Below the pieces are notes generated by a model. The model had not been told where the DNA came from, did not search any database, and worked only from the letters and a program-made list of their open reading frames with translations. A DNA stretch of 64,000 bases, from assembly GCF_016862955.1 (NCBI RefSeq), contig NZ_BONY01000027.1, positions 62,001 through 126,000 of the forward strand. Reading direction: 5' to 3'. This document shows, piece after piece, positions 6,573 to 54,121 of this stretch; position 1 is the first letter of the stretch, and each line of letters begins with the position of its first letter. The translations under genes were made by a program, and so were the position numbers. The stretch comes from Rhizocola hellebori (GTDB lineage Bacteria; Actinomycetota; Actinomycetes; Mycobacteriales; Micromonosporaceae).

Positions 6573-7634
6573 TCAGCGGACAAGCTCTGCCACCACCGCC
6601 GTAGCCCCAAGGTCTTCGGCGGTGGTGATCTGCGCGCGCAAACCGTGCCGCAGCGCCGCCTCAACCAGTTGCGGCGCTTGCCTTTCGCTCGACTCGACCA
6701 GCAGATGCCCGTCGGCCGCGAGCCAATCCGGCGCGCCCGCAATCACCCGCCGCAGGACGTCGAGCCCGTCCGCGCCACCGTCAAGCGCGACGGGCGGCTC
6801 ATACACCCGCGCCTCCGGCGGCATCAGGCCGACCTCGCCGGAGGGCACATACGGCGCGTTGGCGATGAGAACGTCTATGCGCCCCTTCAGCTCAAGGGGC
6901 AACGCCTCATAAAGATCACCTCGGTAAACCGGCCCGGGAACATTACGCCGAGCACACCGCACCGCAGCCGGATCAACATCCGCAGCAAACACCTCCACCC
7001 CACCCCCAGCCGCCAAGCCGCGCAACGCCGAGCCTTCCGCAGCAGGGCCGCGCAACGCCGCGCCTTCCGCAGCAGAGCCGCGCAACGCCGCGCCTTCCGC
7101 AGCAGGGCCGCGCAACGCCGCGCCTTCCGCAGCAGGGCCGCGCAACGCCGAGCCTTCGGCAGCAGGGCCGCGCAACGCCGCGCCTTCCGCAGCAGAGCCG
7201 CGCAACGCCGCCCGACCATCTGTCGCCGAGCCGCGCAACGCAGCGCCTTGCGCCGCGGGGCCATGCAACGCCGCCGGACCATCCGCGGCGCGGCCGCTGT
7301 CGCGCAGGGCGGCGGCGACGGCGGCGGCTAGGGCGCCGGTGCCACAGCACAGGTCGACGACGACGGCACCGGCGGGGGCGAGGGCAATGGCTTGGTGGAC
7401 AAGGAATTCGGTGCGTTTGCGGGGGACGAAGACGCCGGGCTCGACGGCTATGCGCAGGCCGCAGAACTCGGCCCAGCCGAGGATCTGCTCCAGTGGCAGG
7501 CCCGACTCCCGCTGGCGCACCATCGCGGCGAGCTCTTCGGCCGGGCGGGCCTCGGCGAGGAGCAGATCCGCTTCTTCTTCGGCGAAGACGCAACCCGCCG
7601 CCCTCAGCCTCGCCACGATGGTGTCGTGCCGCAT
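6573..7634 (-). CDS. PrmC-related SAM methyltransferase with internal repeat insertion
   Basis: 353-aa methyltransferase related to PrmC/HemK, which methylates the GGQ glutamine of release factors. It has an N-terminal helical domain, SAM motif I VDLCCGTGALA (about 96) and a late motif VFAADVDPAAVRCARRN. The catalytic NPPY of true PrmC is NAPY (about 256), typical of the actinobacterial PrmC-like subgroup whose substrate is unknown. Between motif I and the next strand lies an insertion of about 90 residues made of AALRGPAAEG-like 10-aa repeats, absent from normal family members. The start is the ATG at 7634, 5 nt after the upstream glyoxalase-fold gene, so they form an operon. The last codons contain an 11-bp hairpin (6591-6627). 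Confidence 0.85.
   Translation of the reverse strand: MRHDTIVARLRAAGCVFAEEEADLLLAEARPAEELAAMVRQRESGLPLEQILGWAEFCGLRIAVEPGVFVPRKRTEFLVHQAIALAPAGAVVVDLCCGTGALAAAVAAALRDSGRAADGPAALHGPAAQGAALRGSATDGRAALRGSAAEGAALRGPAAEGSALRGPAAEGAALRGPAAEGAALRGSAAEGAALRGPAAEGSALRGLAAGGGVEVFAADVDPAAVRCARRNVPGPVYRGDLYEALPLELKGRIDVLIANAPYVPSGEVGLMPPEARVYEPPVALDGGADGLDVLRRVIAGAPDWLAADGHLLVESSERQAPQLVEAALRHGLRAQITTAEDLGATAVVAELVR
6591..6627. terminator. Hairpin overlapping the 3' end of the methyltransferase gene
   Basis: CACCACCGCCG pairs with CGGCGGTGGTG (11 bp, 15-nt loop) just downstream of the secreted-protein stop, inside the last codons of the convergent methyltransferase gene. It could terminate the plus-strand gene. 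Confidence 0.4.
7013..7290. repeat. 30-bp in-frame minisatellite inside methyltransferase gene
   Basis: Six 30-bp units at 7021-7200 (starting CGCAACGCCG and ending GCAGGGCCG or GCAGAGCCG) differ at only a few positions; degenerate copies continue on both sides. The period is a multiple of 3, so each unit encodes about 10 residues and the frame stays open. Confidence 0.95.
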
Positions 7635-7639
7635 CGGGG

Positions 7640-8050
7640 TCAGCCGAGGATCTCTAGGTAGTGCGGGTTGTACATGACTCCGAGCACGTTGCCGAAGGGA
7701 TCGACCACCGAGGCGGTGACGAAACCCGCGTCGCCGCGCTTGGTCAGCGGGTCGTGCTCCAAGGCGCCCATCGCCAGCAGCCTGTCCAGCGTGCCCTGCA
7801 CATCGTCGACGTGCCAGTAGAGGACCGCGCCGCCGGGCGCGTCGGCCGGGCCGGCGTAAGGCGCGAAGCGCCGATCGATGATGCCCAGCTCGTGCTGGTA
7901 GTCGCCAATGCGAAACTCCAGGTAGGCGGGACTCCCGTCGGGGCCGGGCCGCTCGAAGTAGGGCTCGATGCCGAGCAGCTCCGCGTACCACTGCCTGGCG
8001 GTGGCTATGTCATCGGCGAAAAAGTTGACTGTCGCCATTCCTCGCAGCAT
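7640..8050 (-). CDS. Glyoxalase/VOC-fold protein
   Basis: 136-aa single-domain vicinal-oxygen-chelate protein (FFADDIATARQWYAELLG at the start, SVVDPFGNVLGVMYNP at the end). Members bind a divalent metal for isomerase, dioxygenase or resistance reactions; the substrate here cannot be told. The ATG at 8050 is preferred to the one at 8038 because GGAAGG lies 8 nt upstream. It leads a two-gene operon with the PrmC-like methyltransferase. Confidence 0.85.
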   Translation of the reverse strand: MLRGMATVNFFADDIATARQWYAELLGIEPYFERPGPDGSPAYLEFRIGDYQHELGIIDRRFAPYAGPADAPGGAVLYWHVDDVQGTLDRLLAMGALEHDPLTKRGDAGFVTASVVDPFGNVLGVMYNPHYLEILG

Positions 8051-50055: not shown

Positions 50056-50084
50056 CTAATAGTCTCTCGATGGCTGGAGTCCAC

Positions 50085-51998
50085 ATGAAACAGTTGCGAT
50101 TAGCGGCCGCGGCCGCGCTCGCCGTGCTCCTCTCCGCCGTAGCGGTCGCCGCCACGCCGGCCTCCGCCGCGGAAGTGCTCGTCAACGGCGGCTTCGAGTC
50201 GGGCAGCCTCTCCCCGTGGACCTGCTCCGCGTCGTCAGGAAGCGTCGTGACCAGCCCGGTGCGCACCGGAACCCGGGCACTGCAGGGCGTCCCGGCCGGG
50301 CTGGACAACTCGCAATGCGTCCAGACCGCTTCGGTCGTCTCGGGGACCCAGTACACGCTCAGCGCCTGGGTGCGCGGAAGCTACGTCTACCTCGGCGTGA
50401 CCGGCGGCTCGTCGACCTGGACGCCCAACGCGACCGACTGGACCCAACTCACCGTCACCTTCACCGCCTCGGGCAGCACCGCCCAGGTCTATCTGCACGG
50501 CTGGTACGGCACCGGCAACTACTACGCCGACGATGTGTCCCTGCAAGGCGCGGGCGGCACGCCGGTACCGGGAACACCCGGAACCCCGGTCGCCGGCACT
50601 GTCACCAACACCTCGATCGCCCTGTCCTGGACGGCATCCTCGGGTACGGTCACCGGCTACCGGGTCTACGAGGGCAGCACGGTCGTCTCCTCCCCGACCG
50701 GCGCCTCGGCCACCATCTCCGGGCTGGCCACCTGTTCGACCCACACCTATTCGGTGGCGGGCGTCAACAGCGCGGGCGAATCGGCCCGATCCGGCAGCGT
50801 CACGGTCACCACCACCGGCTGCGGCACGGGCGTGCCCGGCGCACCGGCCAACCTGCGGGTGACCGCCACCACCAACACCTCGCTCGCGCTGGCCTGGAAC
50901 GCTTCCACCGGAACGGTTTCCGGCTACCGGGTCTATGAGGGCACGGCCCTGCGCACCACCGTCACCGGGCTTTCGGCCACGCTCACCGGCTTGGTCGCAT
51001 GCACCAGCCACACCTATGCGGTGCGGGCTTACAACGCCAGCGGTGAATCCTCACCGGCCACGATCACCGCCGCCACCACCGGATGTCCGGTGGGCAATCT
51101 GCCCAAGCATCTTCTCACCGGGTACTGGCAAAACTTCACCAACGGCGCCACCCCACTGCGGCTGTCGTCGGTTCCGACCACCTACGACATCGTGGCGGTC
51201 GCCTTCGCCGACGCCAACCCGAGCCTGCCGGGCGCGGTCACCTTCAACGTGGACTCGGGCCTGTCCTCGGCGCTCGGCGGCTACACCAACGCCCAACTCC
51301 GCACGGACATCACCACGCTGCACTCACGCAACCAGAAGGTGATCCTGTCGGTGGGCGGCGAACGGGGCACGGTGTCGATCGGAAGTTCCACGGCCGCAAC
51401 CAATTTCGCCAACAGCATCGTCGACCTCATCACCAGCTTCGGCTTCGACGGCGTCGACATCGACCTGGAAAACGGCCTCAACCCGACCTTCATGGAGCAG
51501 GCGCTGCGATCCATCCGCTCCCGGGTGGGCGCCAACCTCCTCATCACCATGGCCCCGCAGACCATCGACATGCAGTCGACCGGCGCGGGCTACTTCACGC
51601 TGGCGCTGAACATCCGCGACATCCTCACCATCGTGCACACCCAGTTCTACAACTCGGGCAGCATGCTCGGCTGTGACCAGATGTTCGCCTACGGGCAGGG
51701 CAGCATCAACTTCCTCACCGCCCTGGCCTGTATTCAGCTGCAGAGCGCCCTGCGCCCGGACCAGATCGCGCTGGGTCTTCCCGCCAGCCCCTCAGCCGCG
51801 GGCGGCGGCTACGTCAACCCGACCGTCATCAACAGCGCGCTCAGCTGTCTGGCGGCCGGAACCAGTTGCGGCAGCTTCGTTCCACCGGCCCGCTGGCCGA
51901 ACATCCGGGGTGCCATGACCTGGTCCATCAACTGGGATGCCAGCAACGGCTACAACTTCGCCAACACCGTCCACAACCACCTGGTGACGATGCCCTGA
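50085..51998 (+). CDS. Secreted GH18 chitinase (CBM, FN3, FN3, GH18)
   Basis: 637-aa secreted chitinase. After the signal peptide (ending near TPASAAEV) comes a CBM4/16-like sandwich (LVNGGFESGSLSPWTCS), two FN3 domains (about 166-250 and 255-335) and the GH18 barrel from about 345. The catalytic DxxDxDxE motif is FDGVDIDLEN (about 454), with MAPQTIDM and QFYNSGSM also matching. ATG 50085 is preferred (GGAG 5 nt upstream) to 50070. A terminator follows. Confidence 0.95.
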   Translation: MKQLRLAAAAALAVLLSAVAVAATPASAAEVLVNGGFESGSLSPWTCSASSGSVVTSPVRTGTRALQGVPAGLDNSQCVQTASVVSGTQYTLSAWVRGSYVYLGVTGGSSTWTPNATDWTQLTVTFTASGSTAQVYLHGWYGTGNYYADDVSLQGAGGTPVPGTPGTPVAGTVTNTSIALSWTASSGTVTGYRVYEGSTVVSSPTGASATISGLATCSTHTYSVAGVNSAGESARSGSVTVTTTGCGTGVPGAPANLRVTATTNTSLALAWNASTGTVSGYRVYEGTALRTTVTGLSATLTGLVACTSHTYAVRAYNASGESSPATITAATTGCPVGNLPKHLLTGYWQNFTNGATPLRLSSVPTTYDIVAVAFADANPSLPGAVTFNVDSGLSSALGGYTNAQLRTDITTLHSRNQKVILSVGGERGTVSIGSSTAATNFANSIVDLITSFGFDGVDIDLENGLNPTFMEQALRSIRSRVGANLLITMAPQTIDMQSTGAGYFTLALNIRDILTIVHTQFYNSGSMLGCDQMFAYGQGSINFLTALACIQLQSALRPDQIALGLPASPSAAGGGYVNPTVINSALSCLAAGTSCGSFVPPARWPNIRGAMTWSINWDASNGYNFANTVHNHLVTMP

Positions 51999-52024: not shown

Positions 52025-52055
52025 CCCGCGCCCATGTTTGATCCATGGGCGCGGG
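52025..52055 (+). terminator. 12-bp perfect hairpin after GH18 chitinase
   Basis: CCCGCGCCCATG / CATGGGCGCGGG with a 7-nt loop, 26 nt after the stop. The following 100 bases, rich in A/T (TTTTATGATCAAATC), probably hold the promoter of the next unit. Confidence 0.75.
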
Positions 52056-52177
52056 CGTGACCGAAGGCTTATGTGACAAATGGGATGTTTTATGATCAAA
52101 TCAACCTGGCGCTGAGAATGCCTGACCGAGCAACGGCATCGCGGCTGAAATCCAATCCCTGATCGTGGAGGTAGTAA

Positions 52178-53059
52178 GTGGCACATACATTCGGCCAGTC
52201 TGATGCCGATGACGCCGTGGTGGGCAAAAGTGGCAGCGGACGAGGGATTGTCGGCGAGAGCAAAGATCAGGCAGGAGTGGCCGGTATAAGCAAGAACTTC
52301 GTCGGTGTCTGGGGTGAGAGCGCCAGCGATGGCCATCCTGGCGTCTTCGGGCGCAGCCAAAAATGGCAAGGCGTACACGGCGAAAGCGACAACCAAGCGG
52401 GAGTAGTCGGCATCAGCAAGAATTTCGTCGGCGTCTGGGGTGAAAGCAGCAACGATAAACATCCAGGCGTGTTCGGGCGCAGCCAAAAATGGCAAGGCGT
52501 ACACGGCGAAAGCGACGACCAGGCAGGCGTTGTCGGCGTCAGCAAACACTTCGTCGGGGTCTGGGGCGAGGGCTCGCCCGCCGGCTTTTTCAAAGGAGAC
52601 GTTCACGTCACGGGTGACCTGATCCTGGAGGGCGCCGACTTGGCCGAACAGTTCGAGGTCGCCGACACGCTCGGCTGCGGCGAGGAGGTCGGTCCAGGGA
52701 TGGTAGTTGTCCTCAACGACGACGGCGCGCTTGCACCGTCCACACGCGAGTACGACACCCGCGTTGCCGGCGTCGTCTCGGGCGCGGGGGATCGGGTCCC
52801 GGCCATCGTCCTGGACCGCCAGGAGACCGGTGGGTCGTCCTGGCGTCGGGCCGTGGCGCTCGTCGGCAAAGCGTGGTGCCAAGCCGACGCGACGACCCGG
52901 CCCATACAGGTCGGCGACCTGTTGACCACCTCGTCATCGCGCGGCCACGCGATGGCCGCCTCCGACCGGCACGCCGCGTTCGGTGCGATTATCGGCAAGG
53001 CATTGACCCCGTTGACTTCCGGTACAGGGCTGGTCTTGGTTCTGGTCGGGTTGGGCTGA
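52178..53059 (+). CDS. Tail-fibre-like repeat protein with peptidase-G2/chaperone-like C-terminus
   Basis: 293-aa protein with no signal peptide. Residues about 10-135 contain three copies of a 42-aa repeat (AGVVGISKNFVGVWGES, HPGVFGRSQKWQGVHGESD), typical of beta-solenoid fibres. A short linker (FFKGDVHVTGDLILEGADLA) leads to a C-terminal domain (YDTRVAGVVSGAGDRVPAIV, VALVGKAWCQADATTRPI) resembling domains at the ends of phage tail fibres and G2-type intramolecular chaperones, though the catalytic residues cannot be confirmed. GTG start with GGAGG. First of three genes; the ATG of the metallopeptidase follows its stop by one base. Codon use is less GC-biased than in the neighbours. Confidence 0.75.
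   Translation: MAHTFGQSDADDAVVGKSGSGRGIVGESKDQAGVAGISKNFVGVWGESASDGHPGVFGRSQKWQGVHGESDNQAGVVGISKNFVGVWGESSNDKHPGVFGRSQKWQGVHGESDDQAGVVGVSKHFVGVWGEGSPAGFFKGDVHVTGDLILEGADLAEQFEVADTLGCGEEVGPGMVVVLNDDGALAPSTREYDTRVAGVVSGAGDRVPAIVLDRQETGGSSWRRAVALVGKAWCQADATTRPIQVGDLLTTSSSRGHAMAASDRHAAFGAIIGKALTPLTSGTGLVLVLVGLG
52271..52575. repeat. 126-bp coding repeat in fibre-like gene
   Basis: Units start at 52271, 52397 and 52523 with exactly 126-bp spacing (42 codons). The DNA is highly similar, for example GCAGCCAAAAATGGCAAGGC at two positions 126 bp apart, so the duplication is recent or kept homogeneous. Confidence 0.95.
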
Positions 53060-53060
53060 C

Positions 53061-53741
53061 ATGCCCAACCTCACAGACTCCTGCCGAGCCAACCGTTTTC
53101 CGTTAAGCCTTAGGCAGATGGCGAGCGCGGTCGGCATGACAGGCCGGGTGTCGGCCCGCACCTTCCTGCGCACGGCTCGATGCAGTCACGGCGAGTGCGT
53201 CACACTCCACCTCAAAATCCTCGCGTTGCCGCAAGTGCCGATCCCGACAATGCTCGTGTCGATGCGCGAAGTCTACGACGGCGCTGGCATCGGGGTGCGG
53301 GTCGCAAGCCGTGAGTTTCTCACCGGACCAGCGTTCGCCACGCTGGCTGTCCTACAGGTCGGTAACTGCACCAACACGCTCACCGCCGACCAGATCCAGC
53401 TGTTCACCAATCGCAACAACGTCGGCGCCAACGAGATAGCTATCTACTTTGTCCTTGCCACCGTCCAAAGCTTCAATGGATGCGCGGCTCACCTCGCCGG
53501 GCAGCCTGCCGCGGTCGTCACGGGCATCGCCTCTCGCTGGACGCTAGCCCACGAGGTCGGCCACGTCCTAGGCCTCGCTCACGTCGATGATCCGGCACCG
53601 CCTGACCCGAACGCTCCTGCGGCGCTGTTGGACCGGCTGATGACAGGACGCGGAACTCACATGATCACCAATCCGCCGCCGGACCTCATCGATACCGAGG
53701 TCAGGACAATGCGCGACTCACAGCTCACGCCCAACTGCTGA
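53061..53741 (+). CDS. Zinc metallopeptidase (HExxHxxGxxH)
   Basis: 226-aa protein with the metzincin-type site LAHEVGHVLGLAHVDD (about 170-185) and a possible Met-turn at LMTGRGTHM. The N-terminal half (CVTLHLKILALPQVPIP, MREVYDGAGIGVRVASREF) is like M10/M43-type folds. There is no clear signal peptide, although the N-terminus has several Cys. One base separates it from the fibre-like gene and 11 from the HEAT gene. Target unknown. Confidence 0.82.
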   Translation: MPNLTDSCRANRFPLSLRQMASAVGMTGRVSARTFLRTARCSHGECVTLHLKILALPQVPIPTMLVSMREVYDGAGIGVRVASREFLTGPAFATLAVLQVGNCTNTLTADQIQLFTNRNNVGANEIAIYFVLATVQSFNGCAAHLAGQPAAVVTGIASRWTLAHEVGHVLGLAHVDDPAPPDPNAPAALLDRLMTGRGTHMITNPPPDLIDTEVRTMRDSQLTPNC

Positions 53742-53752
53742 ACGGTGCCGCT

Positions 53753-54121
53753 ATGCCAGTGACCCATGCTGATGTCGTCAACGTGCTTCAGCCCGACGAG
53801 ATCGACTATCCAAACGCCGCGCGGCACCTCAGTGCCGAAGCTGTACCGATTCTGGCCGAGATCGCCGCTGGTCCCGACCCGGGACTCGCCTCCAAAGCGG
53901 CGTCCCTGGCCGGGTTCCTGCCCGGCAATGCGGCAAGCGTCATACTCCCCAAGGCGGCGACACACCCAAATCCGGTCGTCCGGATAGCCGCCGCGGCATC
54001 GATCGCCCACCATGCCGAGCTTTTAGAACTGGCCGACCATCTCGCCAAGGATCCCGACGAAGGCGTTCGCAGATGGGCATCCAGTTCCGCCCACGCCCTC
54101 CGCACCCAAACCCCAAACTGA
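53753..54121 (+). CDS. HEAT-repeat protein
   Basis: 122-aa alpha-helical protein of about three HEAT-like repeats (AVPILAEIAAGPDPGLASKA, VVRIAAAASIAHHAELLELA, DEGVRRWASSSAHAL). Such modules bind proteins. Its position, 11 nt after the metallopeptidase, suggests a binding partner or immunity-type protein, but this is inference. Confidence 0.8.
   Translation: MPVTHADVVNVLQPDEIDYPNAARHLSAEAVPILAEIAAGPDPGLASKAASLAGFLPGNAASVILPKAATHPNPVVRIAAAASIAHHAELLELADHLAKDPDEGVRRWASSSAHALRTQTPN

Follow-up and report, generated by a model that had tools for sequence, protein, structure and literature searches.

Polymorphic toxin systems with Tox-MPTase domains and Imm-HEAT proteins combine a modular protein that ends in a metallopeptidase with a small HEAT protein whose gene comes right after it, and HEAT-repeat immunity proteins are a described component of such systems (PMC3482391). 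Their N-terminal trafficking part is shared while the C-terminal toxin varies. A second kind of system, the extracellular contractile injection system (eCIS), uses tail fibres that are phage-derived and have exchangeable binding domains, and some of its effectors are proteases (PMC8213781, PMC12923769, PMC11297309). Here we describe a locus with likenesses to both. It lies in a 64,000-nucleotide stretch of DNA (the window) from a 10.8-Mb assembly whose relatives are actinomycetes, and it encodes a fibre-like protein (F), a metzincin-type zinc peptidase (P) and a HEAT-repeat protein (H).

The three genes are forward-strand open reading frames separated by gaps of 1 and 11 nt in the ORF listing of the window, as the original prediction had stated (Table 1). 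Their neighbours in the window are metabolic genes and, directly upstream, a gene for a GH18 chitinase with CBM_4_9 and two Fn3 domains (50070-51998); a tail module is absent. Base composition sets the unit apart in the two ways that had been claimed for it: the leader has a GC content of 0.492 against 0.68 for the whole window, and GC3 is 0.75 in F, 0.77 in P and 0.69 in H, as compared to 0.84-0.90 in four neighbouring genes. The leader is likely the promoter region, and a promoter pattern scan found no sigma-70 consensus within it. Of the terminator proposed upstream, what stands is a terminator-like hairpin, which folds as RNA at -29.7 kcal/mol (z -3.68; 0 of 200 shuffles equally good); it has no T run, however, and is absent from the output of a scan for T-run terminator patterns.

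Table 1. Coordinates in the window of the F-P-H unit and of features within and before it.
Feature	Position	Strand	Description	Basis
Hairpin	52025..52055	+	12-bp stem, GC-rich, between upstream chitinase gene and F; terminator-like, no T run	RNA fold
Leader of unit	52060..52177	+	118 nt, 49% GC; GGAGG-type ribosome site before GTG start of F	
F, fibre-like protein	52178..53059	+	293 aa	ORF call
F repeats	52199..52576	+	three 42-aa units of GVxGxS/VGVWGES type	TRF and register
F C-terminal domain	52595..53056	+	conserved; common to phage fibre ends	alignments and Foldseek
P, metzincin-type zinc peptidase	53061..53741	+	226 aa	ORF call
P N-terminal SLR tag	53103..53165	+	two-part: LSLRQM, residues 15-20; VSARTF, residues 30-35	
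P zinc-binding active site	53550..53582	+	HEVGHVLGLAH, residues 164-174	
P candidate Met-turn	53640-53642	+	M194	aligned P proteins
H, HEAT-repeat protein	53753..54121	+	122 aa; partner of P	ORF call

The peptidase motif that the original prediction had picked out in the second gene is present, and it matches the HExxHxxGxxH/D zinc motif of metzincins. Aligning 61 P proteins revealed that H164, E165, H168, H174 and M194, together with C103 and C141, are invariant (61/61). When an AF2 model of P (pLDDT 86.8, pTM 0.81) was compared with known structures by Foldseek, the top matches were all metzincins, among them the B. fragilis metalloproteinase II (4on1), ADAM and venom metalloproteinases (E 1.5e-6, prob 1.00, with TM scores of only 0.43-0.54 and 12-18% identity). 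By its HExxHxxGxxH site and its predicted fold, P is a metzincin and a candidate protease. The window's P falls under every Pfam and NCBIfam cut-off (best, Reprolysin_5, 22 against 27 bits; M10, 18.8 against 24); it is far below the NCBIfam cut-offs and belongs to no named family (M10, M12, M43). We saw no leader or signal peptide on reading the N-termini of the window's P and its relatives, and no known secretion signal on the window's F, P or H. The invariant pair C103/C141 would fit a disulphide, and with it an oxidising place of action.

An alignment of three P proteins (from the window, S. avidinii and Spirosoma) was used to scan 84,980 species genomes; 177 stretches fit the pattern, 88 encoded relatives, and the best 80 of these 88 were taken. 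H is the next gene on the same strand in all 80 of these other P loci, recognised at E 1e-14 or better by a profile built from three H proteins only. Because the loci were chosen by P alone, the linkage to H is independent evidence. The P stop and the H start are typically ~9-12 nt apart under a simple start-codon rule, and P and H distances correlate across 81 loci (r 0.76), indicating co-inheritance, not binding. Thus the conserved unit is P-H, and the F-P-H trio is the exception. Hosts of P-H include Arthrobacter, Streptomyces, Paenibacillus, Bradyrhizobium, Sphingomonas, Nitrospira, Algoriphagus and Pedobacter as well as Chloroflexi, Acidobacteria, Planctomycetota, Myxococcales and the archaeon Methanoperedens; several of these loci are MAG contigs, for which binning errors are possible. 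P is rare (3/396 genomes sampled across the phylum). Plasmid records yielded relatives of the window's P only in S. avidinii (57%) and Spirosoma (40%), both with a HEAT gene next, and a search of plasmids with H returned the S. avidinii P-H locus as its sole match.

Beyond an Algoriphagus-type synteny, P-H has no other conserved neighbour, except that in five loci H is followed by a free DUF6623 gene. In five loci with DUF6623-type or similar modules (L040, L042, L055, L061, L087) a related extra gene comes after P-H, and in several of them it is a free-standing DUF6623 copy, a further binding module with a gene of its own. As one option, the original prediction had the peptidase maturing the fibre. 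This is unlikely to be the purpose of P, and we rejected it as the main role, since P-H occurs in 80/80 retrieved loci (the best 80 of 88) and almost always without F.

Whereas its core is constant, the N-terminal part of P is exchanged: among 79 P proteins we found LGFP (26), DUF346 (17), FG-GAP (11), DUF6623 (10), B-lectin (2) and DUF5648 (2) modules. The cores of Spirosoma P, which has zinc-ribbon-like repeats, and Rufibacter P, which has DUF346 repeats, are 74% identical, and those of B-lectin and DUF346 versions up to 71%. Repeats of the LGFP, DUF346, FG-GAP, DUF6623 and B-lectin types are mostly lectin-like or surface-associated.

The description of H as pure HEAT repeats is fair: HEAT_2 scores 31.8 bits against a Pfam cut-off of 27.7 (E 1.8e-7), though the window's H is shorter than most of its relatives, which reach ~150 aa or more. 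Eight loci encode an H with C-terminal GLMPGE-type repeat tails (L036, L044, L047, L049, L050, L056, L059, L060). The earlier suggestion that H binds or inhibits P is plausible, and we regard H as the dedicated cytosolic partner of P and probably its inhibitor.

F is built as had been foreseen, from three 42-aa repeats and a C-terminal domain of phage-fibre type. TRF detected a period of 126 nt (42 aa; 2.3 copies, 84% match), and the best three-unit register gives 26/42 and 36/42 identities between neighbouring units. These repeats are predicted to form a short beta strand roughly once in 10 residues, in a structure model whose confidence is low there and overall (pLDDT 62). The C-terminal domain is similar in sequence to the termini of long, fibre-like proteins encoded on viral contigs (31-34% identity, tblastn E to 6e-10), and its predicted fold resembles models of phage preneck appendage and tail fibre proteins (Foldseek BFVD, E to 1.6e-10). 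Against the PDB it scores weakly (E 2e-3 to 1e-2), yet the proteins matched are phage fibre, appendage and decoration proteins, including the C-terminal fragment of phi29 gp12 (3gqh; E 0.01, prob 1.00). F has no Pfam, NCBIfam or PADLOC family, no signal peptide evident from its N-terminus as read by eye, and zero matches among 50,697 phage records. Four near relatives lie on contigs catalogued as viral, and three of these bear names of the kind given to prophages predicted in isolate genomes. The C-terminal domain follows repeats of various sorts in plasmids of actinomycetes, Bacteroidota, Proteobacteria and one cyanobacterium. It was found in 5/396 genomes phylum-wide (~1%), 14/239 in the family and 5/228 of a Bacteroidota centre set, three of these five being distant. 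The F homologue of an S. avidinii plasmid (L016, NZ_CP108617.1, 7245-7880) is unannotated; RefSeq places a hypothetical CDS over it on the opposite strand (7227-7769). One actinomycete carries two divergent F genes adjoining (L138, 5650-8036).

The P proteins of the window, of the S. avidinii plasmid (L016) and of a gammaproteobacterial MAG (L070) have in common a two-part SLR tag, which they share with unrelated F-linked genes and which occupies the place of other P proteins' binding modules. These three are exactly the P proteins with F adjoining, and the tag is found in 0/78 others (Fisher 1.2e-5). That the tag replaces the binding modules just where F adjoins is the main ground for reading F as the binding part in trans. 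Scored as S[LVI]Rx[hydrophobic], often present twice, within 60 residues of either end, the motif occurs in 16/22 F-linked genes as compared to 2/88 of the remaining annotated genes at the same plasmid loci, and in 3/80 P proteins without F; a shuffle control gave a mean of 1.3/22 and a maximum of 4. Because the motif was picked post hoc and some of the 22 F-linked genes are homologous to one another, the p-values of 1e-11 to 1e-12 make the case look stronger than it is, and the shuffle is no cure for this. Loci retrieved later offered a partial independent test under the same rule: the motif is present in L171, L172 and L174 (one genus) and in L173; in L170 and L176 it follows a twin-arginine-like signal and falls just outside the 60-residue limit; it appears as a variant in L175 and fails in L177. 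No convincing gene lies downstream of F in L169 or of the second F in L170. Among F-linked genes the motif is missing from L019_1, L018, L021 and the T9SS partners of L023, L150 and L151.

F usually lies closely upstream of other genes, and these are of several kinds: P-H in the window and L070; other metzincins (L025, L123, L137); HExxH or HExxH-like proteins (L019, L027, L121); proteins that by eye look papain-like from CGG/CGP and His motifs, with no Pfam match (L026, L122, L136, L138); possible beta-propellers, likewise by eye (L022, L122, L173); and a trypsin-like T9SS protein (L023, L150, L151). The last three loci, from Bacteroidota, have a signal peptide on F and another on the trypsin-like partner, an extracellular version of the pair, and a T9SS sorting domain is annotated on the partner in L023. 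The genes after F in L170, L175 and L176 belong to one family, whose members have a twin-arginine-like signal with an SLR-type region right behind it. As F is signal-less there and the cargo carries the twin-arginine-like signal, co-export of a docked F is conceivable.

Co-occurrence of all three families in other genomes had been anticipated, and this was borne out in part. The trio recurs in the same order in L070 and as P-H-F, with F downstream, in S. avidinii, and more distantly in a Rhodobacteraceae plasmid (L025, 4996-8240) and an actinomycete (L137, 4198-6926), but P-H almost always stands without F. The two distant loci have F, then a non-orthologous metzincin, then a larger HEAT-like gene whose HEAT matches are below the Pfam cut-off. 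That metzincins and HEAT-type genes pair up more than once suggests that the combination is functionally needed.

Together, the P-H linkage, the exchange of modules on a constant P core, the linkage of the tag to F, and the reuse of F and tag with unrelated neighbours lead us to propose, with a probability of roughly 0.4, that in the window a P-H module has been coupled to a fibre scaffold: F would recognise the target in trans and dock the tagged P, and H would silence P. P would be a protease working outside the producing cytosol, where it would cut an external target. H may bind P in the cytosol and keep it inactive until it leaves by an export route. P would in most organisms recognise its target through its own N-terminal binding modules, a role that F, derived from a phage fibre, would take over in the window by trimerising and binding a surface, with P docked through its two-part tag. 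The phage-fibre kinship of the C-terminal domain and the tag/F linkage support the scaffold reading, and it counts in its favour that in L025 and L137 another metzincin and another HEAT-like gene form the pair that follows F. Against it count the lack of a visible export signal on F, P and H; the post hoc choice of the motif, the homologous cargo and the F-linked genes without the motif; the position of F downstream of P-H in S. avidinii; and the pLDDT of 62 for the F model.

Parts of this proposal have competing explanations. H might be an adaptor or export chaperone, handing P to an export route or a cytosolic substrate, rather than an inhibitor. Strict P-H linkage and co-inheritance fit such a role equally well, since it predicts the same gene linkage; HEAT repeats are general protein-binding scaffolds, and the long C-terminal MPGE-type repeat tails of some actinobacterial H proteins (8 loci) suit an adaptor better than a simple inhibitor. 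A leaderless intact protease in the cytosol, however, would be expected to need control, and HEAT immunity proteins have precedent (PMC3482391). We consider an adaptor possible, and nearly as likely as an inhibitor. Less probable, and in our judgement unlikely, is that the SLR tag directs export or sorting by a secretion machine and that F is a fellow substrate, not a docking scaffold. The motif does sit at the extreme N- or C-terminus of otherwise unrelated proteins, as targeting signals do, but F itself has no obvious terminal SLR motif, the motif of L170 and L176 lies behind a twin-arginine-like signal and thus stays in the mature protein, and the Bacteroidota versions, with a signal peptide on F and a T9SS partner, lack it; the common factor is adjacency to F.

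Other readings concern the locus as a whole. F, P and H could be parts or payload of an eCIS: the marker Pvc16_N occurs in 16/40 P-H genomes, that of the window included, as compared to 22/246 random actinomycete genomes, and within Actinomycetota in 8/21 P-H genomes against 21/245 (Fisher 6e-4), an enrichment for which genome size and habitat may account. L177 (3177-8145), in which a distant F relative adjoins a protein with the LQKRLGNTAVQRL motif and baseplate-like proteins, suggests when read by eye an F-type fibre inside an eCIS locus. Pvc16_N is nevertheless missing from 24/40 P-H genomes, no eCIS gene (sheath, tube, baseplate, AAA) recurs beside P-H, and the Pvc16_N of the window's genome is on another contig (C31, 18942-19547; the window is on C27). 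We rejected the trio as an eCIS component, a reading we hold improbable: the marker, though enriched, is lacking in those 24 genomes and is not adjacent, and an eCIS is not required. Still further from the evidence, and very improbable, is a prophage tail remnant with P and H as passengers. The C-terminal domain of F is of phage type and the four near relatives on viral-listed contigs would agree with this, but it was rejected because F is unmatched in the 50,697 phage records and phage genes never recur beside F; moreover, P-H has spread without any phage gene. We give as little credence to the idea that F stands beside P-H by chance and that the three proteins do not cooperate. The absence of F from nearly all P-H loci speaks for chance, but independent recurrence in distant bacteria, the 1-nt gap here and the exact match of tag and F speak against it. 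An anti-phage defence system was rejected as well, as PADLOC matched neither F, P or H nor their L070 versions.

More broadly, SLR-tagged leaderless enzymes on F scaffolds and the P-H pair of protease and HEAT inhibitor, with the address either fused or supplied in trans, may form a new modular delivery class, a generalisation that we offer only tentatively. We found no published description of P-H, or of F with tagged cargo, in the open-access literature. If these readings are correct, an uncharacterised protease-partner operon went unnoticed in actinomycetes, Bacteroidota, Proteobacteria, Bacillota, Nitrospira, Chloroflexi, Planctomycetota and Methanoperedens. The SLR tag would then be a simple docking code linking phage-derived fibres to unrelated enzymes, and such a code would explain how bacteria reuse phage fibre parts outside injection machines.

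Compared with known systems, P has in common with fragilysin-like metalloproteinase II (4on1), the ADAM/adamalysins and the matrixins its zinc site, Met-turn methionine and predicted fold, but unlike these metzincins it has no visible pro-domain and always has H next to it. F is like the C-terminal domains of phage fibres and preneck appendages (the phi29 gp12 class, marine phage fibres) in sequence and predicted fold, and shares with phage fibres a repeat-rich beta N-terminus; unlike theirs, its gene sits in a bacterial chromosome or plasmid, has no tail module around it and is followed by peptidase-like genes. The fibres of eCIS resemble F in being phage-derived, and some eCIS effectors are proteases, as P would be (PMC8213781, PMC12923769, PMC11297309), whereas the window locus has no sheath, tube or baseplate genes and no DUF4157, and its F is the operon partner of its cargo. 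We saw no RHS, CDI, WXG or other trafficking domain on P, and the polymorphic toxin metallopeptidases listed in PMC3482391, although of HExxH type, have other signatures than P. The closest described kind is nonetheless the polymorphic toxin-immunity systems with Imm-HEAT, from which P-H differs by its reversed modularity: here it is the C-terminal peptidase that stays the same and the binding modules at the N-terminus that change. If our reading holds, the polymorphic-toxin layout is inverted here, with a constant enzyme and an exchangeable address.
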